From: Protonemura montana
Taxonomy: Eukaryota; Arthropoda; Insecta; Plecoptera; Nemouridae
Direction: 5' to 3'
NCBI GenBank assembly: GCA_947568835.1
Contig: OX387607.1
Coordinates: forward strand, 2,232,001-2,296,000
DNA: 64,000 nt
Part shown: positions 26,091 through 64,000 of the stretch, piece by piece
How positions within the stretch are numbered: position 1 is the first letter of the stretch
Layout of the letters: every line of letters begins with the position of its first letter
The notes under the pieces: generated by a model
Databases searched by the model: none
Seen by the model: the letters and a program-made list of their open reading frames with translations, nothing else
Told to the model about the DNA's origin: nothing
Made by a program: the position numbers and the translations under genes

Positions 26091-29000
26091 ATGTTGACAA
26101 AGTTTAGCAAACGAAGAAGCCAGCAGTTTTGTGCCGCGTTGTTGGTGGCCGGTCTTTTCTATGCGCTCACCTATGTGCTTGTCGACGACAAGATTCAACA
26201 TGTGAGTAAAACTAAAATGTATGAAATGTTTACTGGCGAACGCTCTACTATACATAGGGAGGTGATCTATGTTTTCATTATCTGTGTTAACATGACTTAA
26301 TGATATGACAGGTACTTATTAAAGGAGGTCATTCCAGATCGGCCAGGGGATAACGTCGATCTGCAAACACTCATTGCATGCGTCACTAAAATCTGATAAT
26401 TTTTTTCGATTTACAAGTGGAATGGATTTTTTTTAAGAGTTTTTCTATTTTTTCCAGAAAGTCCTAAAGGCTAATATGTGGGTTCGATTATATTGAGTTA
26501 CATTTTTGGTTACGATCAAATAAGTTTAATAAAAAAAGAATTATTATTATTATTCTAACTACAATTAAGTTACATCGACATCTCCTATGAAAAATAGTTA
26601 TTTCCTTGAACAGAAATGATTTCGTCCAAGGAATAAAAAAAATAGGTATTCTCTAATTTAAAATGATCCCTTTCTAAGCAGTTCAGTTTCTTTGGTAATG
26701 AATTACTCAGCCTTGATCCCACATCTAAAAGGGTTTTTAGACCCTTAGTTGAACATTCGGTTGATGTCCAGAATTTTAACACGACTGGAAGCCATGATTC
26801 AGATTCCGATTCATTACTCAGTTGATCGATTGATTTGTGTGTTATGTTTAACGACGCACTATTTTGACAACGGGTCGTAGGGCACTGGTCTCATGGCTTC
26901 GGTAAATGATGATCTAACCTAGCCAAGAAGGGAGGAGGTGAAACCCGGTGCCGGCACGTAGCCTACTCCTGTCCGAATAGCTGTCCGTTCCGAAGGACGG
27001 CACAACACGAACGATAGGATTCCTCCAATTTTGGGTCTACAGTATTCCAGAAATGATAAGAAATGCAACGTGCAATTAGCTAAGATTACAAAAAACACAC
27101 AGACTGTCTATCAGCATGACGAACGGTAATTAAAAGGAAGTTTGGTGGTTTTCGCCAGGATGAGAACCCGTTGCTCCTGACTTCCGGCCGAGACCGCGTC
27201 CTGGACGTTGCCGAGGTCCAGCTGCCGAAGCCAGAGAACTTGGAGGCGTGGGACGGCATCTGGCAGAACGTTTCAGGAGCTGAGTGAGTTGAGCAAGAGT
27301 TGAGTTGTGCGGTTGGTTGGTTTGTGGTTCTCATTCATTTGTGGTGTTTAAAGACACCAAGGTCTTAAAAACAGAACATTTGTGAGTTACCCCTACGGTC
27401 TAATGGTCTAATGGTCTGAGCGATGATTATGATGAAGAAAAGAGAGGTGGGGAAACCTGGTGCTGGTACGTAGCTGACTCCTGTCGAAGAGCACCAACGG
27501 GACCACTGGGTTAACGTCCCTTCCGAAGGACGGTACAACTCGAACAATGCAGGATTCCTCCACAAATCCATGCCGTCGAGAGGTTGATAAGCAAGGCGAG
27601 TGCTTAACTCTGATGAACTCATGAGAACCGGTGTTCGCCAAACGCCAAACCATTCGGTGATCACCCATCCAAAACCTGGCCCTGGGCAGTGATGCTTAAC
27701 TTTGGTGAAATCACGAGAACTACCGGTTCCTAAAAATTAAGCCGTTCCTATTTTTGTGTTTTTTAACGACGCACTTTACTGACAACGGGTATCTGATTCA
27801 AGGAACTCATGGGTGATCATGCCCGGGGTGATCATCTGAATGAGTGAAAATTGCTCTATACATGAGGAGGGTAACCCAGTACTGACATCCACTCTGAAAA
27901 ACGGTATCATATTTTAAGACGCTTAATTTCTTAGATCACATTACTTTGTATCTTTGTCTCGGTCACGATCAGAACCAATTGAACAAGACCAAGAGAGCGA
28001 GACTTACATTGACATACCTCCATACTTGCTCCGGCAGACACAAGCTGTTCGTCTTCTCGGCGTACCACGAGCGTCGCGACGCCCTACAACGTGGCGTCCG
28101 TGTTGTCGGCGTCACTCGCACGCACAGGTCGGCGCCGGTCTGGTGCCGCTTTTGGTACGACGACGCATCCCGGCAATCTGTGTCCGTCCTCGCTCACATT
28201 CAGGTGCGGTACAGGAACAGGAACAGGAAACGGAGCGCCAGAGTGTTCTGGATCTGGTCTTATTGGTAGATTTGTAGTGTTTAACGACGCTCTATTTGAT
28301 AGCGGGGACTGTGGTACTAGTCTGATGGCGTCGGCGAATGAGTGGGTGATGATTAGGATGATGATGAATCTAGCCTAGAATAGAAAAGAGAAGAGAAAAC
28401 CCGGTGCCGTCGTGTAGTCTACTCTTGTCGCAGAGGGGACAACCGGCTTAACATCTCTTCCAAAGGACGGTACAACGCGAACAACAGGATTCCTCTACAA
28501 ATCCATGCTGTCGAGAGGTTGATAAGCAAGGCGAGTGAAGTTGCTGTACTAACTTTCATCCCTCCAACCTCTCTCCCGAACAGAACTGGTCATGTGTATG
28601 ATGGTCACCCATCCAATACCTGACCCAGCGCAGTGTTGCTTAACTTTCATCCCTCCAACCTCTCTCCCAAACAGAACTGGTCATGTGTATGATGGTCACC
28701 CATCCAATACCCGACCCAGCGCAGTGTTGCTTAACTTTCATCCCTCCAACCTCTCTCCCGAACAGAACTGGTCATGTATATGATGATCACCCATCCAATA
28801 CCTGACCCAGCGCAGTGTTCCTTAACTTTCATCCCTCCAACCTCTCTCCCGAACAGAACTGGTCATGTGTATGATGGTCACCCATCCAATACCTGACCCA
28901 GCGCAGTCTTGCTTAACTTTCATCCCTCCAACCTCTCTCCCGAACAGAACTGGTCATGTGTATGACGGTCACCCATCCAATACCTGACTTGGCGCAGTGT

Positions 29001-32000
29001 TGCTTAACTTTCATCCCTCCAGCCTCTCTCCCGAACAGAACTGGTCATGTGTATGATGGTCACCCTGGTTATACCTGACCTTTTTTGCTAGCACGTCTTT
29101 ACCATTCGGTCTGGCTTTGGCAGTCTTTCTCTTCTGGCATCGTTTTCTGTCTTTGAGGTCCAAAGTATTTTTGGAATGTGTCTATTTATTTTTCAGTTTG
29201 TAGCAACAAACTTGCTTTTACCAACGGTTCTCATACCACCCTGTCAATAGTGTGTAAGGTAAATAAATTGAAAACAAATCTATCAAGCTTCTCATTTCGA
29301 TCTAACTGAAATAGTCCTTGTTTGGGGCATCGACTCTTGAGAGGTTATTAATGTTCCTAAAAAAAATACTGCTCAAAATATTGCTCATTGCTCATTGCTC
29401 ATTGTAGATAATCCGTGAGAACTGGGACCGCGAGTACAGCGCTAGTTTCTTCCTGTGTCCGCTGACTGAAGACATCACTGTACCGGACTCTGTCTCAGTT
29501 GTACGACGTCTGCAAGACGTGCCCACCAACCGGCTGCAGGTCATCGACAACTTCGACCGGCCCGTAGAGGGACCTGGAAAGCTTGCAGTGTGCGTCCAAC
29601 CTCTACACACTTTGCACGATGTAAGATTGTCTTATGAAAGAAAGAGAGGAATGGTCCCAAAAAAAAAAAAACTGTCTAAACACTAGGGTTTGAAATTTAA
29701 AAATCCCGACTTTTCGCAACTAGGACTAGTCTTTGTTTATAAAAGAAAAGAAAGGTGTAAATCTTTCACTTGCAGTTTAGATTTACATTTCGACTGTTTA
29801 GAATGTGTTTGCGATTTTTTCAACTCACACTAGGCATAATTGATTGATGTGAGGTGTTTAACGACGCACTGTTTGGTCAAGGGGATATGTTTTAATGTGC
29901 TAGTTTGTATAGCCTCAATGAACGGGAAAGGAATGGTTAATGGCTCTTGCAAGTTTCTTACACGTATGACCAAGGAAAGGTGAAAATTAGCGCCGTCGTG
30001 TACCCTAACTTTTGTCAAAGTGCACCAAGGGGACCGCCGACGAAACGTCCCTTCTGGAGGACGGTACAACGCAAACAACCTAGGATTTAATCCCATGCTG
30101 TCGCGAGCAGGAAGAACGTTTTTTTTTTACTTGCTACGCTTTAAGAGACAGAATTACGCAAAGGAAGATCAGGAGCCTGTACTGGCTAGCATAAGCCAAC
30201 TATTAACTTTCCAGCTAACTTCCCAACTGTTCATTATTAACGTTCACAACAACAACAACATCCCAATTAGCTCCATTTTGGAACGAATACCTGCCTAAAA
30301 GTCGGAGAACGGATTTCAAATTTAAACGGCCAGCTTTAAGACGATGGATCCAGCCGAACTGATGCATCACGTTACTCTTGTTTTATTAACGCCACGCGGC
30401 CACATTTTCAAAACACTGTACCGATAGCGAACATTTCGTGTCTTGGCAAATGTATTAGAAATAAGTGCTTTCCACCGAATCGATTTGCTAGAAAAGTTGA
30501 AAACCACCACATTTAACCGTTCTGTTGTAGGTCATGCACGTCAGGGGGGGGGGGGGGGGGGGGAGGGCTTCAAAAGAGAGTTACTTCTGTTGGTTCTCTC
30601 GAGCACTTGCGTGTCTCACAAATAAGAACACTAAATAATACATATCAGAAAACTATACACCTTCACTTTACACTTTGAAGAAGCAAAAGAAAAACAGACC
30701 ACTTGTCTCCAGTTCAAAAACAAATTGAGAGTTTAAAATGGCTCTTTTAGTACAAGCTGGCACACGCTTTACTATTCTTACAGGCAAGACTAGTTCCATC
30801 ATCATCCTCATCATCATCATCCATTCGTTCACTGAAATCATTTGGCTAAGGTTAAAAGTCAATAATTGCAGGCATCAATAATGACAAAAAGAAAGATCTT
30901 ATCTATTCTTCGTCAGAACAATAAAAATCATAGACACATTCTGGGGTCAGACCGGCAAAGGAGAGGTTAAGTTTAACCCCAGAGCTTACAGATGATCAGC
31001 CAATCACAGGCTGTGTTTACAGCTTGTCACGAGTTGTTACCATGGTGTTAACAACTTAAACTCTGTCGTAAAACTGTTGTTAAACTCTGCCATGTAGATC
31101 CGGCCACTGTGCGGAAACTCGTCGTCTCTGACCTACTTCCCTATGCTTGAGATGAATGTTCCCATCTAGACTTGCCTATAAAATACTAAATGCACCACCC
31201 TCTAAAACCTTCACCCATAAAATACCAACGTGCTTTGCTTCTGTACCAGACATTCCGTATCATCGAGTTCATCGAACTTTATACCCTTCTCGGCGTCGAG
31301 CATTTCACCCTCTACAATAACAACACCGACCCTGAAGTCGCCTGCGTGTTGGACTCGTACGTGCTTCAAGGCAAAGTGACGCTCCTCTCCTGGGACCTGC
31401 CTATGGACGGCAGTCTCTGGCTTGGCGACGACAACGCCGGCCCAGAGATATGGGTGCACGGGATTCATGCGGCGCTCAACGACTGTCTCTACAGGAACAT
31501 GTACCAATTCGCCAACGTGGCGATGGTGGACTTGGACGAGTTTATCTTGCCCAAGATGGCGGAGACGCTAGTCGAACTTTTAGAGTGAGTTGTGCTTTGT
31601 AAATATTGGTTGCTTGATTGTAAATGACTCGATTTAGCGACTTTAAACTTAGGGTCTGGAAATGTGACCAAAGAGACAAACATTGGTGATTCAACAGAAC
31701 AAACAAGATTGATGTCAGAAAATAGTAAGAGATACGGAACTTGAAAATCGACATTACAGCAAATATTTTTGTATGGATTTATCTCACGTGTTGCTGAGTC
31801 ACTAATGAAATACTCAATAAAGTATTCTTAGAGAAATTTGTTAGAAATTCAGAAAAAACAAACTTTTTGCTGTCGCTTTTGGTTTTTGGAGAAGTAATAG
31901 AGTTGAGTGATAGAGTTTTTAGACGTCTCACTTATCTAATTTCAATTATAATTATTGTTTTTAATAATGTTAAAATTAGTAAAAAACTCCGCCCCCGTTT

Positions 32001-42689: not shown

Positions 42690-43200
42690 ATTTGTGGTGT
42701 TTTACGACGCACTGTTTTGACAACTGGCCCTGCGGCACTGGTCTAATGGCGTCGGTGAATGAGTGGATGATGATGAGGATGATGATGAACCTAACCTAGC
42801 CTAGAAGGGAGGAGGGGAAACCCGGTGCCGGCACGTAGCCTACTCCTGTCGAAAAGCACCAAGGGGACCACCGGCTTAACGTCCCTTCCGAAGGACGGTA
42901 CAACGCGAACAACAGGATTCCTCCACAAATCCATGCTGTCGAGAGGTTGATAAGCGATGCGAATGAAGTTGCTGTACTAACTTTCATCCCTCCAACCTCT
43001 CTCCCGAACAGAACTGGTCATGTGTATAATGGTCACCCATTCAATACCTGACTCAGCGCAGTGTTGCTTAACTTTCATTCCTCCAACCTCTCTCCCGAAC
43101 AGAACTGGTCATGTGTATAATGGTCACCCATCCAATACCTGACCCAGCGCAGTGTTGCTTAACTTCGGTGATCTAACGAGAACCGGTGTTTCCAACACGC
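42690..43200 (-). mobile_element. 5S rRNA-derived SINE (SINE3-like), most complete copy
   Basis: Read on the minus strand. The head is 5S-like: ACCGGTTCTCGTTAGATCAC, then CGAAGTTAAGCAACACTGCG and GGTATTGGATGGGTGACC, which follow 5S rRNA through its internal promoter boxes. Then come a linker (GGGAGAGAGGTTGGAGGGAT), a partial second 5S unit, and a body with GTACCGTCCTTCGGAAGGGA and CGTTAAGCCGGTGGTCCCC. The tail is TCATCATCATCC, then CAAAACAGTGCGTCGTAAAA and an AAATAATAAAA-type end. No open frame. The conserved central block resembles shared SINE domains of the Nin-DC kind, from memory only. Confidence 0.85.
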
Positions 43201-43827
43201 CAACACGACAGATAAGTTTGTTTCATTATTGCCTCTTAGCCTATGGTCATGAGTTTCTAAACTTCTTTCTACTTGCTTATTTTGTATGACATACATTATT
43301 ATACTGTAAATTATTTGTAGATGAAAATGCTTGTACGTGCCGAGAAGTTTTCTCAGCGGCTTTCCCGCGACCTGTGCTTTAACGGGTATTGATCGCACCT
43401 CTTTATACGCTGAGCAATACCAATAAATATCTTTGCGCTACTTGTGCGGGTAACTTGTTCACTTTTACAACCAATATGACCGTTATAAACATTCATCCAT
43501 TACATTCAACCTTAAAAAGTGCTGTTTGACAGTTGAACAATTCCCATTTTTTTGGGGGTGGTTCCGAATAGCATTGAAGTTGATGAGTATCATAAAATAC
43601 ATCGAAAAAGCGTCATATAATATTATTAGTAACACTAATAACCTTTCAAAAAATCGATGCCCAAACGGGAATACATTTTTGAAAAGTGTTCCTAATAATA
43701 AAATACCCTGCGCATTGCAAGCGTTTGCAATTGAAATCCGATTTCACAAAGCGAAATATAATTGAAAAATGTGTAAGGAAGTCCGTTTTTGAGCCGTGTT
43801 TCGAGATTTTTTACTTGAAATTACTTT
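43201..43827. other. Intergenic stretch between paralogues B and C
   Basis: No exon seen. It contains a GATGCCCAAACGGG piece (about 43658) shared with the relic at 36945. Confidence 0.5.
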
Positions 43828-49368: not shown

Positions 49369-49429
49369 ATTTTTCACGGCATCCCTTTTCATGACTCTAC
49401 CTCATTGCTAGAATTGAAAGCATATATCA

Positions 49430-50672
49430 GTGGTCAGTGCACGCGGGTGTACGCAGTCCACCCAGTGATGTAGTGGTCAATGCACGCGGGTGTACGCAGT
49501 CCACCCAGTGATGTAGTGGTCAATGCACGCGGGTGTACGCAGTCCACCCAGTGATGTAGTGGTCAATGCACGCGGGTGTACGCAGTCCACCCAGTGATGT
49601 AGTGGTCAATGCACGCGGGTATTCGCAGTCCACCCAGTGATGTAGTGGTCAATGCACGCGGGTGTACGCAGTCCACCCAGTGATGTAGTGGTCAATGCAC
49701 GCGGGTGTACGATGTTCACCCAGTGATGTAGTGGTCAATGCACGTGGGTGTACGCAGTCCACCCAGTGATGTAGTGGTCAATGCACGCGGGTGTACGATG
49801 TTCACCCAGTGATGTAGTGGTCAATGCACGCGGGTGTACGCAGTCCACCCAGTGATGTAGTGGTCAATGCACGCGGGTGTACGCAGTCCACCCAGTGATG
49901 CAGTAGTCAATGTACGTGGGTGTACGCAGTCTACCCCTTGATGTAGTGGTCAATGCACGCGGGTGTGTGCAGTCCATCCAGTGATGTAGTAGTCAATGCA
50001 CGCGGGTGTACGATGTTCACCCAGTGATGTAGTGGTCACTGCACGCGGGTGTACGCAGTCCACCCAGTGATGTAGTGGTCAATGCACGTGGGTGTACGCA
50101 GTCCACCCAGTGATGTAGTGGTCAATGTACGTGGGTGTACGCAGTCTACCTCTTGATGTAGTGGTCAATGCACGCGGGTGTACGCAGTCCACCCAGTGAT
50201 GTAGTGGTCAATGCACGTGGGTGTACGCAGTCCACCCAGTGATGAAGTGGTCAATGCACGCTGGTGTACGCAGTCCACCCAGAGATGTAGTGGTCAATGT
50301 ACGTGGGTGTACGCAGTCCACCCAGTGATGCAGTGGTCAATGTACGCGGATGTACGCAGCCCACCCAGTGATGCAGTGGTCAACTCAATGCACGCGGGTG
50401 TACACAGTCCGCGCAGTGATGTAGTGATCACTGCACGCGGGTGTACGCAGTCCACCCAGTGATGTAGTGGTCAATGCATGCGGGTGTACGCAGTCCACCC
50501 AGTGATGTAGTGGTCAATGCATGCGGGTGTACGCAGTCCACCCAGTGATGTAGTGGTCAATGCACGCGGGTGTACGCAGTCCACCCAGTGATGTAGTGGT
50601 CACTGCACGTGGGTGTACGGAGATCATCCAGTGATGTAGTGGTCACTGCACGCGGGTGTACGGAGATCATCC
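49430..50672. repeat. 43-bp minisatellite, about 29 copies
   Basis: Unit GTGGTCAATGCACGCGGGTG followed by TACGCAGTCCACCCAGTGATGTA. Variants (TACGATGTTCACCCAG, TGTACGTGGG, CAGTCTACC) are interspersed. No spacers, no gene. Confidence 0.95.
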
Positions 50673-52321: not shown

Positions 52322-53284
52322 TGCCAAGCCAAGCCATGCCATACCATACCATACCATGCTATACCATACCATACCATGCCATACCATGCCATGCCATGCC
52401 ATGCCATGCCATACCATACCATACCATACCATGCCATGCCATGCCATACCATGCCATACCATGCCATACCATACCATGCCATACCATACCATACCATGCC
52501 ATGCCATGCCATGCCATGCCATGCCATGCCATGCCATTCCATGCCATGCTATGCCATGCCATGCCATGCCATGCCATATCATACCATACCATGCCATGCC
52601 ATGCCATGCCATGCCATGCCATGCCATGCCATACCATGCCATGCCAAGCCAAGCCAAGCCATGCCACGCCATTCCATGCCATACCATGCCATGCCATGCC
52701 ATGTCATGCCATGCCATGCCAAGCCAAGCCATGCCATGCCATGCCATGCCACGCCACGTCGTGCCATGCCATGCCATGCCAAGCCAAGCCATGCCATGCC
52801 ATGCCATGCCACGCCACGTCGTGCCATGCCATGCCATGCCATGCCACGCCACGTCGTGCCATGCCATGCCATGCCAAGCCAAGCCATGCCATGCCATGCC
52901 ATGCCACGCCACGTCGTGCCATGCCATGCCATGCCAAGCCAAGCCATGCCATGCCATGCCAAGCCAAGCCATGCCATGCCATGCCATGCCATGCCATGCC
53001 ATGCCATGCCAAGCCAAGCCATGCCATGCCATGCCATGTCATGCCATGCCAAGCCAAGCCAAGTCATGCCAAGCCAAGCCATGCCATGCCTTGCCATGCC
53101 ATGCCATGTCATGCCATGCCAAGCCAAGCCATGCCATGCCATACCAAGCCAAGCCATGCCATGCCATGCCAAGCCTTGCCATGCCATGCCATGCCATGTC
53201 ATGCCATGCCATGTCATGCCTTGCCATACCAAGCCAAGCCATGCCATGCCATGCCATGCCATGCCATGCCATGCCATGCCATGT
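52322..53284. repeat. Pentanucleotide satellite (CCATG)n with CCATA, CCAAG and CCACG variants
   Basis: About 190 five-base units. Because the period is five and stop codons are rare in it, all frames on both strands stay open (MAWHG and CHAMP type repeats); these are not genes. ACGCCACGTCGTGCC recurs at about 52751, 52811, 52846 and 52906, so longer blocks have been copied within the array. Confidence 0.97.
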
Positions 53285-54848: not shown

Positions 54849-55400
54849 CAATAGGATCCAGGATCTCAAATTTCCTGGATAGAGCATAGAATCCAGCCAG
54901 CTGATCTCAAATAACCTGGATAGAGCATAGGATCCAGCCAGCTGATCTCAAATAACCTGGATAGAGCATAGGATCCAGCCAGCTGATCTCAAATAACCTA
55001 GATAGAGCATAGGATCCAGCCAGCTGATCTCAAATAACCTGGATAGAGCATAGGATCCAGTCAGCTGATCTCAAATAACCTGGATAGAGCATAGGATCCA
55101 GCCAGCTGATCTCAAATAACCTGGATAGAGCATAGGATCCAGCCAGCTGATCTCAAATAACCTGGATAGAGCATAGGATCCAGCCAGCTGATCTCAAATA
55201 ACCTGGATAGAGCATAGGATCCAGCCAGCTGATCTCAAATAACCTGGATAAAACATAGGATCCAGCCAGCTGATCTCAAATAACCTGGATAGAGCATAGG
55301 ATCCAGCCATCTGATCTCAAATAACTTGGATAGAGCATAGGATCCAGCCAGCTGATCTCAAATAACCTGGATAGAGCATAGGATTCAGTCAGCTGATCAA
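54849..55400. repeat. 41-bp minisatellite, about 13 copies
   Basis: Unit ATAGGATCCAGCCAGCTGAT followed by CTCAAATAACCTGGATAGAGC, nearly perfect apart from the first and last units. A single inverted piece (ATCCAGGTTATTTGAGATCA) stands apart at 55608-55627. Confidence 0.95.
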
Positions 55401-55645
55401 AATTGAATTCCGGCAATTCATTGCTGGCAACGTAAAGGACTCCCTAAATCCGAGATGTCCTTAAGATTTCAATGCTAATTGAAGAGGTTTTGAAACACTT
55501 TTTTTCACCAGTTTGACCTTGAAAACTACAAGTTTTTTGGCAGTACTCAAAATTAGGCACTCTCAAGATGGTGGCCTTGGCTTCAAAGTATCTCTATGGC
55601 AGCCGCTATCCAGGTTATTTGAGATCAATGGGCTTAAGAAACGAT

Positions 55646-58600
55646 TCACCAACAGGATTCAATTGTTGTGGTGTTGGTAACAATGCGGCGGTCGACAGAG
55701 CTGCCATTCAACTGAAGTAACACTATTTCATACGTCACAATGGATCCAGCAAGCTGTGTTTAAAAAAGTTGAAGCGATTTTCAATTAGTGTCACAACAGA
55801 GCTAGCTTTTATTTCAATATAAAAATAGTAATTACAGATGATCTTACCGTGAGTAGCAGTTTCCTGGTGACGAAGAAAAAGTTGAGACCCGACAACGCTA
55901 TTTCGTCGGTCAGAACTTGGTTGAGAAGTCGTTGGACCTGGATCAAAAAAAATAGAAATAATTTATTAAACACATTAAGCCATGAATGTTTTAAACGTTG
56001 GTAACCATGTTCGCATGCACGTCCCCCACATCCGGTTGTTTCACGTCCGCACATCCGGAAGCAGCAGTTTCCCAGGGGATACTTTAATATTTAAAATTGT
56101 CTGCCATTCTTCGGGGCCACAGGCGCCTTCGAGGCTCGGCTCGATTGTGTTAAGAATTAATAAAACAGCTGATAGTTAGAAACAAGCAAATATAAATTGT
56201 AATAAAGTAAAAAAAGGGAGATGAAATAGTAGAAAGAGTCAGTAAAAATATTGAGTTAAAGCGAGTTGGAGGAACAGAAACAACGAATAGTTTCCATGAC
56301 ATGAGTTGGGAATACAAAATGGCCAATAGTTTAAATGAAGTTGGCTTGAACTGAATAGTGATGAGGTGGAATATGTCACAGAATCCAACAAACAATCCAT
56401 CTGATAACAGAGTGTTGCGTGTAAGACGGGTAGGTACGAGTTGAGCGCCCCAGCACTCGAGCTATGGGTGCACGAGGCCAAAAGTATTAAAAACACAGGA
56501 CTGCCACTTCAGTGTCGTCTCAAGAACTGTGCTGTTGCTAAGGTCAACTCACTCTGTTAGATTCAACTTAAGTCTTTTGGTGCTGGACTCGTGGTAAAAT
56601 TTACTAATTATGATGTAAATCCACTTGAAGATGTCCCGAAAGAAGTGCGGTATCAACTTAATGATAGTATCCGAGCCCTGTGCTTAAAATTATTAGATCT
56701 TTTAATTAAAAAAGAAACATGGCAAGACGTGTGGACTAGATTTAAGGACAAAAAGCAACTCCCCGAGCGTTCAAGCGTCAGATTTAGTCGCTCCCAATCC
56801 AATAGAGAAGATGTTGGCAAGGATCAAAAGGAAAAAAAAAACAAGTTACCTGTACCACAATGTTTAAGTAAATGGTGGGTGAAACAAGGATTACAATAGA
56901 ATCCTAAAAATAAACTTATCTCGTTAGATAATCTGGTTCAGACCGCAGTTTGTTGGGGTGTTTTTTTATTTATGTTCTTTTACACTATACAGTGAAAATA
57001 TGGAACTAGTCGTACTTGATTAATGTACATGACAAAATATGTAGTTATGACATAGTATCGATGGCATATACATTGGTGGTAGAATACTGCTAGGTATAAT
57101 ATCGGATAAGTTAACTATGTATGCTATTATTCTATGATTAAACAGCACAACGGGGGAAAGTTAGTCACCTCGATGTTGTAGCTCTCAGCGCGTACCGTGA
57201 AGAGGATTCCCTTTGGTTTTTTGCTCTCCTCGTGGATTCCGGCCGCGGTGAGCGACACGGCCACAGTGCGCAGTAGCAGGAAACCAAACGACAGGTAGAA
57301 GTAGACGGCCGTGTCGACGGTTAGCGTGTCACTGGGAAGAATAGGGTAAAAATATGGTGTAGAATAGGTTCAAAATAGGGTTGAATTCGTGCAAAGTGAG
57401 TGGAAGACAAATCGGACCCAAAATAAGCAACAAAATAAAAATTGTGTGAGGTTGGTCTGAATGGAATACAAAAATTGATGAAAAATTGATTCAAAATGCA
57501 GACAAAATTGGTTGAAAAATTAAAACATTTTAAGGTAGATGTATACCAAATCGCTCTGAGGCTTTTAAAAAAATTAAATATTTAAAAATTCTAGAAGCGA
57601 CACCCAGTTTCTGGAGACCAAGCTGAAGATCTTGGTTTCATTCTCCGAATGGGAAAGTAAAACTGAGGGCAATGCAGTTACTTTAATAATACATTTTGTC
57701 TTGCTTATTAGAATCATTAGGAATTAAAGACACTTTTTCCTTCCTAAAATGTCTTACCCATTTATCAACCCAGGAGACCGGGGTTCGAAGCAATGTGAAA
57801 AATATCTTCTAAAATATCCACACCAGCTCCCTGCCCAAGAACACGGTACTCAAGGTCAGAGGGCAACAAAAACCTAGTCTAAGATGGCAGAACCTACCAA
57901 CCTTGATAGTGCGTTTTTAACTAGTGTTTTTAGAAAACGCACTAACGAGGGACGTAGATTTTTAGCCGATAGTCTGCAAGATTTATGAAGATGAGTGCGA
58001 GCTTTGTGGTTGTTCAGTCTGATCAACATGCGTTCGTGTAAAAAATTTCAAATACATTGCTAAGCCACGCCCTTTCTACGACAATAGGTTACAATAGACC
58101 AACTGTTAGATACTCACGAGGTGCTGTTGAGGAGCTGCAGACAAATGAAGTAGAGGTTGCTGCCGAAGGAGAGGAACAGGATGCGGTTGACGTGAATGTC
58201 GACCAACTTGACGAGGCACGAGAGACAGTTGTATGTTTCACGCATCTCCTGCCAAAAAGACTGGTGCGTTTTCTGCGGACAAAGTTTTTAAATTGTGAAC
58301 CTAACCTAGCCTAGAAGGGAGGAGGGATAACCCGGTGCCGGCACTTAGCTCACTCCTGTCAAAGACCAAGGGGACCACCGGCTTAACGTCTCTTCCGAAG
58401 GACGGTACAACGCGAACAACAGGATTCCTCCACAAATCCATGCTGTCGAGAGGTTGATAAGCAAGGCGAGTGAAGTTGCTGTACTAACTTTCATCCCTCC
58501 AACCTCTCTCCCGAACAGAACTGGTCATGTGTTTGATGGTCACCCATCCAATACCTGACCCAGCGTAGTGTTGCTTAACTTTCATCCCTCCAACCTCTCT

Positions 58601-59948
58601 CCCGAACAGAACTGGTCATGTGTATGATGGTCACCCATCCAATACCTGACACAGCGCAGTGTTGCTTAACTTTCATCCCTCCAACCTCTCTCCCGAACAG
58701 AACTAACTTAATGTGGTAATGTTACTGTTTATTACTACCTGTTACTATGTGATCAATTATGGGCGCAATTTCCTGTCAACATTTTGTTAACATTTTTTGT
58801 GGTAACCAATAAATAAATAATAAATATAGGAAGCTTTCAATACCGAGATGTATAGTGAGATATTGACTCTTGAAATGTAACTTTGCAGACCTCAACAGTA
58901 TTTACCTTGTCTCTGACGGCCTCCAACCGTCTGTTGATCTGAGCGAACCTCTGCGTGATGATGCTGCTGACCATCATGAGGAAGATGTCGATGTAGCTCC
59001 ACGAGAAGGTGGCGAGGAAGTCGAAGAGGGTGGCGATCACGGCGAGTGTCCGGGTGTAGAAGATTGCTTGGAAGATGTACGGATAGTAGTGGATGAAGAA
59101 CGCCTCCCCCCATGCGTCCGGTTCGCAGCGTAGTGCCATTCGGAACGTGGCCAGCTTGGCGAGGAGATGCTCGACTGTTCGCATGAATCAAGGGTTTTCA
59201 AAGAAAGGATGTCTTAGGGTTTTCCCAAAATAGTATGAGATTTTTGTGGGCTGAGGCAGTGAACTTTCCTGGTTTATTTTATGCTACTCGTCACCTTTGC
59301 AAATTAGTTCCAGCTTTTTCACGAATTTATGACCGCCGGCCACGGTTTTAATCAGTGAAAAGTTCAGTGAAAAAAGGTCCATTTTTTATATTGAAAATAA
59401 ACACAAAATACCCTTAGGTGTACTCTTAGGACCTCATTAAATAATTTTAGTTCTTGCTAGAGGTTCGATTCATTTAGTAATTGTCGGGGTTTTATTTCCA
59501 TTTTTACCTAAAATACTAGTCTAATAAGATGATACCATTAGAATATTAAAATAAAAAATATCAGAAAACTTGATAATATGGTCAAAAAAGGGTGAAATCA
59601 CTTAAACGGTCCAATTTAATAATTACTATAATAAATAAATAATAAAAAATGACATATAATGACAAATAGGATGCAAATTCTGGATTGTCTCCTCGTTTCA
59701 TCTTTTCAAGAACTGAAAGCAGAAAATATTGGTCACCATGGCGATGAAAGTGAACTTACCTAGAGCTAAGATCAGGAAAGCCGTGGCCAGCAATTTGATC
59801 TTGAGCGCCCCGAACGGCGGGTACCCGTAACTCTTGGCCATGGCGACCTCGACCAGGTGGATTCTTAGGGCGAGAGCCGGCCACTTGGCTGCCAGCTGGA
59901 GGAATAACGCCAGACGCAAGGCGAAGGTACCGTAGAATACGGGGATAG
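55646..59948 (-). CDS. Gustatory receptor (sugar-receptor-like), 5' end outside window
   Basis: Seven-TM ligand-gated ion-channel-type chemoreceptor of arthropod taste neurons. Six minus-strand exons: 59948-59760, 59174-58906, 58248-58118, 57331-57169, 55937-55848 and 55753-55646, about 316 residues, with matching phases. Motifs in order: LALVEHLLAKL, LATFSWSYIDIFLMMVSSII with TQRFAQINRRLE, RETYNCLSCLVKLVD, NLYFICLQLLNS, HEESKKP, ALSGLNFFFVTRKLLLT and the family signature TYEIVLLQ in the short last exon, then an unusual tail to the stop. The HEESKKP, FFxVTR and TYExVLLQ set is closest to insect sugar receptors (Gr5a/Gr64 type), but the ligand is not provable. The first visible exon starts at the edge of the 63-bp array; upstream exons lie beyond 64000. 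Confidence 0.9.
56561..56899 (+). CDS. Unrecognised open frame in a receptor intron, opposite strand
   Basis: I do not recognise it. The frame is open from after TAG (56558-56560) for 112 codons to TAG at 56897-56899. It lies antisense in the receptor intron between 55937 and 57169. The composition is protein-like (Lys, Asp and Glu rich), with SIRALCLKLLDLLIKKETWQ then DVWTRFKDKK, and WWVKQGLQ at the end. A possible acceptor (CTCTGTTAG) precedes it and AATAAA follows at about 56908, so it could be a terminal exon or an old retrocopy. No partner exon was found. Confidence 0.3.
   Translation: MQLKSFGAGLVVKFTNYDVNPLEDVPKEVRYQLNDSIRALCLKLLDLLIKKETWQDVWTRFKDKKQLPERSSVRFSRSQSNREDVGKDQKEKKNKLPVPQCLSKWWVKQGLQ
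58290..58705 (-). mobile_element. 5S-derived SINE (receptor intron)
   Basis: Same orientation as the receptor. It has the body (CGGCTTAACGTCTCTTCCGA, AACAGGATTCCTCCACAAAT) and about 2.5 tandem 91-base head units with GGTCACCCATCCAATACCTG and AGTGTTGCTTAACTTTCATC. The distal tail is missing. Confidence 0.85.
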
Positions 59949-62900
59949 CTGCAGCGGAAAGTTAACAAGGAAGCGGTGATTGAGCGAATGTACCGTAGAA
60001 TACGTAGATAGCTGCAGCGGAAAGTTAACAAGGAAGCGGTGATTGAGCGAATGTACCGTAGAATACGGGGATAGCTGCAGCGGAAAGTTAACAAGGAAGC
60101 GGTGATTGAGCGAATGTACCGTAGAATACGGGGATAGCTGCAGCGGAAAGTTAACAAGGAAGCGGTGATTGAGCGAATGTACCGTAGAATACGGGGATAG
60201 CTGCAGCGGAAAGTTAACAAGGAAGCGGTGATTGAGCGAATGTACCGTAGAATACGGGGATAGCTGCAGCGGAAAGTTAACAAGGAAGCGGTGATTGAGC
60301 GAATGTACCGTAGAATACGGGGATAGCTGCAGCGGAAAGTTAACAAGGAAGCGGTGATTGAGCGAATGTAACGTAGAATACGGGGATAGCTGCAGCGGAA
60401 AGTTAACAAGGAAGCGGTGATTGAGCGAATGTACCGTAGAATACGGGGATAGCTGCAGCGGAAAGTTAACAAGGAAGCGGTGATTGAGCGAATGTACCGT
60501 AGAATACGGGGATAGCTGCAGCGGAACGTTAACAAGGAAGCGGTGATTGAGCGAATGTACCGTAGAATACGGGGATAGCTGCAGCGGAAAGTTAACAAGG
60601 AAGCGGTGATTGAGCGAATGTACCGTAGAATACGGGGATAGCTGCAGCGGAAAGTTAACAAGGAAGCGGTGATTGAGCGAATGTACCGTAGAATACGGAG
60701 ATAGCTGCAGCGGAAAGTTAACAAGGAAGCGGTGATTGAGCGAATGTACCGTAGAATACGGGGATAGCTGCAGCGGAAAGTTAACAAGGAAGCGGTGATT
60801 GAGCGAATGTACCGTAGAATACGGGGATAGCTGCAGCGGAAAGTTAACAAGGAAGCGGTGATTGAGCGAATGTAACGTAGAATACGGGGATAGCTGCAGC
60901 GGAAAGTTAACAAGGAAGCGGTGATTGAGCGAATGTACCGTAGAATACGGGGATAGCTGCAGCGGAAAGTTAACAAGGAAGCGGTGATTGAGCGAATGTA
61001 CCGTAGAATACGGAGATAGCTGCAGCGGAAAGTTAACAAGGAAGCGGTGATTGAGCGAATGTACCGTAGAATACGGGGATAGCTGCAGCGGAAAGTTAAC
61101 AAGGAAGCGGTGATTGAGCGAATGTACCGTAGAATACGGGGATAGCTGCAGCGGAAAGTTAACAAGGAAGCGGTGATTGAGCGAATGTACCGTAGAATAC
61201 GGGGATAGCTGCAGCGGAAAGTTAACAAGGAAGCGGTGATTGAGCGAATGTACCGTAGAATACGGGGATAGCTGCAGCGGAAAGTTAACAAGGAAGCGGT
61301 GATTGAGCGAATGTACCGTAGAATACGGGGATAGCTGCAGCGGAAAGTTAACAAGGAAGCGGTGATTGAGCGAATGTACCGTAGAATACGGGGATAGCTG
61401 CAGCGGAAAGTTAACAAGGAAGCGGTGATTGAGCGAATGTACCGTAGAATACGGGGATAGCTGCAGCGGAAAGTTAACAAGGAAGCGGTGATTGAGCGAA
61501 TGTACCGTAGAATACGGGGATAGCTGCAGCGGAAAGTTAACAAGGAAGCGGTGATTGAGCGAATGTACCGTAGAATACGGAGATAGCTGCAGCGGAAAGT
61601 TAACAAGGAAGCGGTGATTGAGCAAATGTACCGTAGAATACGGGGATAGCTGCAGCGGAAAGTTAACAAGGAAGCGGTGATTGAGCGAATGTACCGTAGA
61701 ATACGGGGATAGCTGCAGCGGAAAGTTAACAAGGAAGCGGTGATTGAGCGAATGTAACGTAGAATACGGGGATAGCTGCAGCGGAAAGTTAACAAGGAAG
61801 CGGTGATTGAGCGAATGTACCGTAGAATACGGGGATAGCTGCAGCGGAAAGTTAACAAGGAAGCGGTGATTGAGCGAATGTACCGTAGAATACGGAGATA
61901 GCTGCAGCGGAAAGTTAACAAGGAAGCGGTGATTGAGCGAATGTACCGTAGAATAAGGGGATAGCTGCAGCGGAAAGTTAACAAGGAAGCGGTGATTGAG
62001 CGAATGTACCGTAGAATACGGGGATAGCTGCAGCGGAAAGTTAACAAGGAAGCGGTGATTGAGCGAATGTATCGTAGAATACGGGGATAGCTGCAGCGGA
62101 AAGTTAACAAGGAAGCGGTGATTGAGCGAATGTACCGTAGAATACGGGGATAGCTGCAGCGGAAAGTTAACAAGGAAGCGGTGATTGAGCGAATGTACCG
62201 TAGAATACGGGGATAGCTGCAGCGGAAAGTTAACAAGGAAGCGGTGATTGAGCGAATGTACCGTAGAATACGGGGATAGCTGCAGCGGAAAGTTAACAAG
62301 GAAGCGGTGATTGAGCGAATGTACCGTAGAATACGGGGATAGCTGCAGCGGAAAGTTAACAAGGAAGCGGTGATTGAGCGAATGTACCGTAGAATACGGG
62401 GATAGCTGCAGCGGAAAGTTAACAAGGAAGCGGTGATTGAGCGAATGTAACGTAGAATACGGGGATAGCTGCAGCGGAAAGTTAACAAGGAAGCGGTGAT
62501 TGAGCGAATGTACCGTAGAATACGGGGATAGCTGCAGCGGAAAGTTAACAAGGAAGCGGTGATTGAGCGAATGTACCGTAGAATACGGGGATAGCTGCAG
62601 CGGAACGTTAACAAGGAAGCGGTGATTGAGCGAATGTACCGTAGAATACGGGGATAGCTGCAGCGGAAAGTTAACAAGGAAGCGGTGATTGAGCGAATGT
62701 ACCGTAGAATACGGGGATAGCTGCAGCGGAAAGTTAACAAGGAAGCGGTGATTGAGCGAATGTACCGTAGAATACGGAGATAGCTGCAGCGGAAAGTTAA
62801 CAAGGAAGCGGTGATTGAGCGAATGTACCGTAGAATACGGGGATAGCTGCAGCGGAAAGTTAACAAGGAAGCGGTGATTGAGCGAATGTACCGTAGAATA

Positions 62901-63014
62901 CGGGGATAGCTGCAGCGGAAAGTTAACAAGGAAGCGGTGATTGAGCGAATGTAACGTAGAATACGGGGATAGCTGCAGCGGAAAGTTAACAAGGAAGCGG
63001 TGATTGAGCGAATG
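59927..63014. repeat. 63-bp tandem array, about 49 copies, containing the receptor splice acceptor
   Basis: The unit on the minus strand is about 42 intron bases ending in TTAACTTTCCGCTGCAG plus CTATCCCCGTATTCTACGGTA, the first 21 bases of the receptor exon that starts at 59948. Units are nearly identical, with marked variants (AACG for ACCG, GGAG for GGGG, GGAACG for GGAAAG). The unit is 21 codons, so two minus frames stay open for over 1000 codons (repeats such as LTFRCSYPRILRYIRSITAS); neither is the receptor frame and neither is a gene. Confidence 0.97.
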
Positions 63015-64000
63015 CAATCTGTTTGTTGAGTTGAGGAGGAGCTACGCTTCTTATTGGTGAAAGTGGAAGAAAAATGACGTGAGGATCGGAATTCTAAAAC
63101 ATTTAGCTTTGGAATTGAAACTGATTCGAAGGTATTTCTAGCGAATTAAGAGTTTAATATCTGAATTGTATTAAAATTAGATGCAAAATGATAAAATTCA
63201 CAGAGCTCAAACACTTCTGACACTTCGTTAGATGCAGAAAACCTTTTCGATGGGAACATATTTACAATTAGAGCTTCTAGAATTGAAAAAGTGTTAATTT
63301 ATAAAAAAAATTGCAAATTTTGTTTGATTGAAAGAATATATATGAAAAACGTTCATCAATATCTAAGTTTGCAATAATTTGTATTGTCAAGTACTCACAA
63401 TAAGGGGACTTTTTTGGGTTTGTAAAATTGTTAGTTTCGCTCTCCAAGCTTGTAAAAAAAGGAGAAAAAACTACGTCTTTGTAATTTTTTAATTACTATT
63501 TAAAACAACCGAATGAGAAGATTTTTTTCTACCAACAATGGTTGCGTTTGTTTCAATTTTAAAACACGGCACACAACTTCGGTCCCGTTGCTAAAAACAA
63601 GGGTAGCAGTGAAACAAAATAATTTCGCCTCCGCCATTTTCATAGCACGCGCAACATTTTGTGAATAACAGCATTACGCATGAGCAGAGATGAGCGCACA
63701 ATCGTAGCGAGACTCCAGAGAAAAGAATCATCGAGGCACAGCATTCAACTTTCATAAAACTTCGTCCGACTCTTGTTATTTAAAAACATTTCTTTTATGA
63801 AAACCATCGTTAAATTTTTATGCTTCGAGCATAGGAATGGTTGAGACCTGCTAAGTAATAATATCTTTGTATGCACGACGAAGTACCTCGTTTTTCCCCC
63901 AAATTGGACATAATCCTATCAGTGAATCATTTAAAAAAAACCCAATATGGCCGCAAAACTGGCTAATGGAGTCCAAGATATTTTTGCTGACTCTTCGTAT
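63015..64000. other. AT-rich flank, probably receptor intron
   Basis: No coding block with receptor motifs is visible on the minus strand, so the upstream receptor exons must lie beyond the window, provided the gene is intact. Confidence 0.5.

Follow-up and report, generated by a model that had tools for sequence, protein, structure and literature searches.

A minisatellite of 49 candidate 3′ splice acceptors at an intron–exon junction of a predicted sugar receptor gene in Protonemura montana

Introduction

Tandem repeats can carry splice sites, and Turri et al. reportedly described in 1995 a human IFI6 minisatellite with multiple splice donors. For this gene (also 6-16 or G1P3), a published account gives two downstream minisatellite repeat units that are used as donors, with three mRNAs (PMC4526556). 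Units of the variable number tandem repeat (VNTR) of SVA retrotransposons supply splice donors, as seen with a reporter cassette (PMC7353768), and the length of an intronic VNTR in ABCA7 is associated with expression and splicing and with exon 19 skipping (PMC5954066). In a potato RdRp gene, an intron arose when the sequence around a 3′ splice site was duplicated in tandem, and RNA-Seq showed the new intron (PMC4974935). Here we describe a 63-bp tandem array with 49 candidate 3′ splice acceptors in intron 2 of a predicted sugar gustatory receptor gene of Protonemura montana (Insecta; Plecoptera; Nemouridae), which appears to be a minisatellite founded across the junction of intron 2 and exon 3. 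The window, meaning the whole 64,000-nt stretch of DNA that was analysed, covers positions 2,232,001 to 2,296,000 of the forward strand of contig OX387607.1 (assembly GCA_947568835.1), and coordinates without a prefix are positions within it.

Results

A 63-bp array with a candidate acceptor in each unit

Tandem Repeats Finder (TRF) reported a repeat of 63 bp × 49.1 copies at 59921-63014 on the minus strand, with 98% matches, 0% indels and a score of 6062, far beyond chance for a repeat. A preliminary description of the window had counted about 49 tandem 63-base units, and splitting the array in register indeed gave 49, with all 48 spacings exactly 63 and CTGCAG counted 49 times. As head-to-tail copies of a unit of tens of bases, the array is a minisatellite. 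In gene direction, the order in each unit is TCAATCACCGCTTCC, TTGTTAAC, a pyrimidine tract, CTGCAG and CTATCCCCGTATTCTACGGTACATTCGC, the last being the start of exon 3 except for one base. The tract and CTGCAG had been described correctly for every unit; the share of the exon had been put at 21 bases, but it comes to 28, of which 27 agree with the real exon. The motif TTAAC, which resembles a branch point, is found in 49/49 units with its A ~13 nt ahead of AG, and exactly one AG is present per unit (49/49). With CTGCAG and TTAAC in every copy, each unit holds candidate splice signals, as in a minisatellite with multiple splice sites. The intronic part of unit 49, the exon-proximal copy, lies at 59949..59983 and the 48 upstream units at 59984..63007, all on the minus strand. 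The consensus is matched without change in 32 of the 48 upstream units, and the remaining 16 hold 17 differences of 7 types (~0.6% of 3,024 bases).

A DNA search of the 258-Mb genome, which may miss very common words, found the 63-bp unit nowhere outside the array (11/11 matches were within it), and a dispersed satellite was rejected with the reservation that such words were possibly skipped. A coding repeat array was likewise rejected, despite two minus-strand frames that stay open through the array for 1129 and 1058 codons. Exactly two frames of one strand are open in 46% of base-shuffled 63-mers and three in 12%, and the matches of the array's open frames in a Pfam search were all under the curated cut-offs.

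The host gene is a predicted sugar receptor

The gene model comprises 8 exons with GT-AG ends and consistent phases, 1281 nt in total, encoding 426 aa with a single stop at the end. The exons were placed from open frames, homology and GT-AG ends, and the model is sequence-based throughout. The protein matches the Pfam family Trehalose_recp over profile positions 14-404 of 410 (E 1.4e-90, 304.4 bits vs a cut-off of 21) and also 7tm_7 (E 5.3e-12), and among solved structures in the PDB a 197-aa part found a relative, the sugar receptor Gr64a (E 1.5e-20). Given the near full-length family match and the open frame across all exons, the gene is predicted to be a complete, intact insect sugar gustatory receptor, in agreement with the gustatory receptor identity and the exon start at 59948 given earlier.

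All exons are on the minus strand. Exon 1 (121173-120962, donor CAG|GTACAC) and exon 2 (64162-64044, ending in phase 1) lie outside the window and are given in coordinates extended beyond it. Exon 3 (59760..59948, 189 nt, donor G|GTAAGT) is followed by exons 4 (58906..59174), 5 (58118..58248), 6 (57169..57331), 7 (55848..55937) and 8 (55646..55753), the last with the stop codon at its end. The array is contained in intron 2, a phase 1 intron of 4,095 nt with its window part at 59949..64000 and its donor at 64043, outside the window; this exon 2 donor, A|GTAAGA in phase 1, stands 44 bases past the window edge. An open frame of 112 aa on the opposite strand (56561-56899, plus strand) overlaps intron 6 and had no Pfam match up to E 0.1.

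Reading frames and quality of the candidate acceptors

Because intron 2 is in phase 1, the frame used in the preliminary description was confirmed. Joined to exon 2, all 48 upstream copies (48/48) would read IPVFYGTFAQSPLPC and then a stop at codon 17, with copy 49 alone staying open, matching the claim that splicing to any acceptor but the last leads into TAA. When the unit was base-shuffled, 45% of 20,000 shuffles carried a stop in a given frame, and because of this the stop needs no design; its presence in the upstream copies is unremarkable and no sign of design.

The pyrimidine fraction at the array acceptor is 0.71, within the range across the seven acceptors of the receptor gene (0.57-0.86), which suggests a quality ordinary for this gene. 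By this crude measure, 170 of the 3,343 AGs outside the array on the minus strand of the window are equally good. The sites had been called working 3′ splice sites: an acceptor-like site is present in each unit, and that it works is a prediction. None of the seven variant types falls in CTGCAG (0/7, chance expectation 0.50), and a sample of seven types is too small to establish that selection maintains the acceptors.

Origin and growth of the array

The intron flank of unit 1 ends in TGCATTCGC, the exon continues in TACCTTCGC, and the unit-unit joins are TACATTCGC. The TACATTCGC junction is what remains after a stretch flanked by two short, imperfect direct repeats is duplicated in tandem; these repeats bound the founding duplication as CATTCGC on the intron side (63008..63014, minus strand) and CCTTCGC on the exon side (59921..59927, minus strand). 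In the order of variants, units 1-14 match units 34-47, and in 0/5,000 shuffles did a repeated block reach that number of variant letters. This order shows that the array grew by multi-unit block duplication, and the low level of differences (~0.6%) suggests that it is young or well homogenised.

A family profile search of the genome (PF06151) gave 54 matches, which in our own grouping fall into seven further sugar receptor loci and other receptor-like matches; a homologous exon start was in hand for six of the seven loci. In 6/6 paralogues read, a same-phase AG stands 5-29 nt ahead of a conserved V(I)F(Y/F)G-type stretch, and TRF found no array at the homologous site in the 6/6 paralogues examined. 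Because these six have the same-phase AG and no array, the array is a derived feature of this receptor gene.

Other repeats in the gene and its paralogues

Arrays close to splice sites were found in two paralogues, with the splice sites not included in either case. At C12:15.6M, a 68-bp array lies 25 nt upstream of an acceptor and occurs again ~33 nt downstream of a donor; at C4:22.85M, a donor is followed by a 36-bp array at a distance of 14 nt. Both were rejected as a second acceptor-spanning array, as they end 14-35 nt away from the splice sites. Because two paralogues have arrays near splice sites, an array that includes the junction may be the extreme of a common habit and is less surprising. 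A 1.9-kb segment with sugar receptor exons (C12:15.606-15.610M) lies between 68-bp arrays of opposite orientation, and the 68-bp unit is also found at C12:12.0M.

Minisatellites with a period of 10-200 and at least 5 copies account for 9.3% of the window, vs 0.1% of 13 sampled 4-kb stretches. Intron 1 of the array-bearing gene is 56,799 nt long and 98% tandem repeat. Its repeats (64163-120961 in extended coordinates) include 11-mers such as ACCTGAACACC and the 5-mers ACCCG and ACCTA; we take the ACCTA repeats to be the arthropod telomere motif TTAGG. A 41-bp unit in 13 copies (54862-55398) lies ~250-780 nt downstream of the receptor stop codon, and a related piece in the opposite orientation is near 55606-55627. 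Also downstream of the gene are a 43-bp × 28.6 array and a TGCCA × 192 array (49429-50662 and 52322-53283). A dispersed 91-bp tandem unit occurs at 28550-29065, 42978-43165 and 58485-58704, and in the region of this unit there is an Rfam 5S rRNA match (43102-43213, minus strand, 56.5 bits); the unit looks like a 5S-derived repeat or a SINE (short interspersed element).

Discussion

We favour, with moderate confidence, the reading that this intronic minisatellite was founded by a unit lying across the intron 2/exon 3 junction of an intact sugar receptor gene, and that the array is tolerated as a passenger. By its sequence, a 63-bp stretch bounded by the short imperfect direct repeats (TGCATTCGC / TACCTTCGC) was duplicated in tandem, and multi-unit block duplication then raised the number to 49 copies. 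Functional mRNA would be made from the exon-proximal acceptor, because exon definition should favour the copy nearest to the exon body and its strong donor. Part of the transcripts may join upstream copies, run into TAA and undergo nonsense-mediated decay, and the decoy acceptors probably cause some unproductive splicing in this way. The array would persist mainly through its small cost and not through selection as a regulator; no test shows that it has a function or regulates the receptor.

Several points weigh against a tolerated passenger. The upstream copies are transcribed first; they may frequently be chosen, and the cost could then be more than small. Of the seven variant types, six are exonic and one is intronic, in parts of 28 and 35 nt respectively; a one-sided binomial test, made post hoc, gives p = 0.033, a weak hint that the splice signals are kept. 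The 0.1% minisatellite share of the sampled stretches is also a low figure, in that two sampled arrays, with 4.1 and 4.8 copies, fell just below the 5-copy cut.

The array had been proposed to be a bank of decoys, in which the donor of intron 2 is contested by the 48 upstream acceptors, which set the share of transcripts that goes to nonsense-mediated decay, so that receptor output is tuned by copy number or varies with it. That all 48 upstream copies are acceptor-like and dead-ended would fit selection for such a role, as would the scarcity of intronic variant types (p = 0.033, post hoc) and the block growth, which makes copy-number variation likely. However, 45% of shuffled units would be expected to carry a stop in the given frame, the lack of variant types in CTGCAG (0/7) is expected half the time, and the array is absent in 6/6 paralogues examined. 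Seven variant types are too small a number to demonstrate selection on the acceptors, and the gene is full of other arrays, which suggest a general repeat habit. The claim that decoys set receptor output found no support, and we regard a selected decoy bank as unlikely. It is very unlikely that the gene, or the sequenced allele, is dead or unexpressed and the array without effect: an intron 1 of 56.8 kb with 98% tandem repeats would be heavy for a working gene, but all eight exons remain open, their phases are consistent and their splice ends are GT-AG, and the match extends over almost the full family profile. Long near-identical arrays are easily mis-assembled, and the exact copy number is uncertain; that the copy number or the array itself is an assembly artefact is nonetheless hard to credit, as the 17 differences in blockwise order over 48 units and the clean unique flanks favour a real array.

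Two further readings would have the copies act on each other or on the protein. The units contain a palindrome, GCTGCAGC, and with each acceptor within the palindrome GCUGCAGC the copies could pair in RNA, hide the acceptors and reduce splicing at every copy, including the real one. In folding predictions, pairing of the AG rises from ~0.6-0.8 with one unit and exon 3 to ~1.0 with two, four or eight units, the dimer fold is beaten by just 1/200 shuffles (z -2.94), and the real energy is reached by shuffled-unit tetramers in 5/200. A single unit, however, folds no better than shuffles (z 0.80), 13/200 AGs in shuffled tandem units reach a pairing of 0.99, which is thus not rare, and the AG is still 0.72-0.98 paired when one palindrome base is changed in silico. 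Odd unit numbers leave one copy partly open (minima 0.20 with three, 0.45 with five and 0.71 with nine), and the predictions ignore proteins and co-transcriptional folding. In the minimum-energy fold of the whole array 48/49 acceptors are paired with another acceptor, a structure that we do not consider realistic. As shuffled tandem units frequently behave in the same way, we rank mutual masking low and consider it quite unlikely. The preliminary description did not consider the GT in the exonic part of 42/48 upstream units, which in principle allows in-frame microexons. With ACGGTACAT as the candidate donor in these units, an upstream unit could be entered and left via ACG|GTACAT, giving a phase-keeping 18-nt exon that adds AIPVFY, or new introns. 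In the potato gene, the intron was gained once the 3′ junction had been duplicated, through a cryptic donor within the exonic portion (PMC4974935). One or two of the 18-nt pieces between exons 2 and 3 keep the frame open to the end, and ACG|GTACAT resembles the gene's own exon 1 donor, CAG|GTACAC. Against this, the donor is weak (score 66 vs 69.5-95.6 for the gene's donors, with an approximate matrix), 17.9% of GTs on the minus strand of the window score as well, phase would be kept by chance for one GT in three, and neighbouring units would leave 45-nt introns. Introns of 45 nt are short for most insects. We judge such microexons highly improbable, and would hold out equally little hope for a splicing ladder built on them, in which a graded mix of dead transcripts and in-frame, AIPVFY-lengthened receptors arises and the length of the block-grown array sets the mix, and sugar sensitivity, between individuals.

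Most work on splice-site competition uses two engineered sites; in this gene, 49 near-identical acceptors are lined up, of which one is predicted to be productive. Receptor output is measurable in taste behaviour, and the locus offers a natural test of how one splice site among many is picked, as the usage of the copies would tell whether choice is first-transcribed-first-served or exon-proximal. Should copy number vary, the array would link a minisatellite to receptor dose, and if it does not, it would show the size of splice-site expansion that a gene can tolerate.

Among the known systems, IFI6 is alike in that minisatellite tandem units carry splice sites, with splice use in the receptor array being predicted. 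It differs in what is repeated, a donor in IFI6 and a branch-point-like site, tract and acceptor here, in 49 copies of 63 bp. The IFI6 repeat unit is also shorter. The SVA VNTR also consists of tandem units with splice sites, and SVA is a mobile element that supplies donors (PMC7353768). Like the receptor array, the ABCA7 VNTR is an intronic tandem repeat, and the abstract of that report describes no repeated splice acceptors (PMC5954066). In the potato RdRp gene, as in the receptor gene, the end of an intron and the start of an exon were duplicated in tandem, inheriting branch site, tract and acceptor (PMC4974935); the potato gene has two copies, and RNA-Seq demonstrated its new intron, whereas the 49 copies here are known from genomic sequence. 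A tandem array of 3′ splice sites was not found in a literature search that most subscription papers lay beyond.

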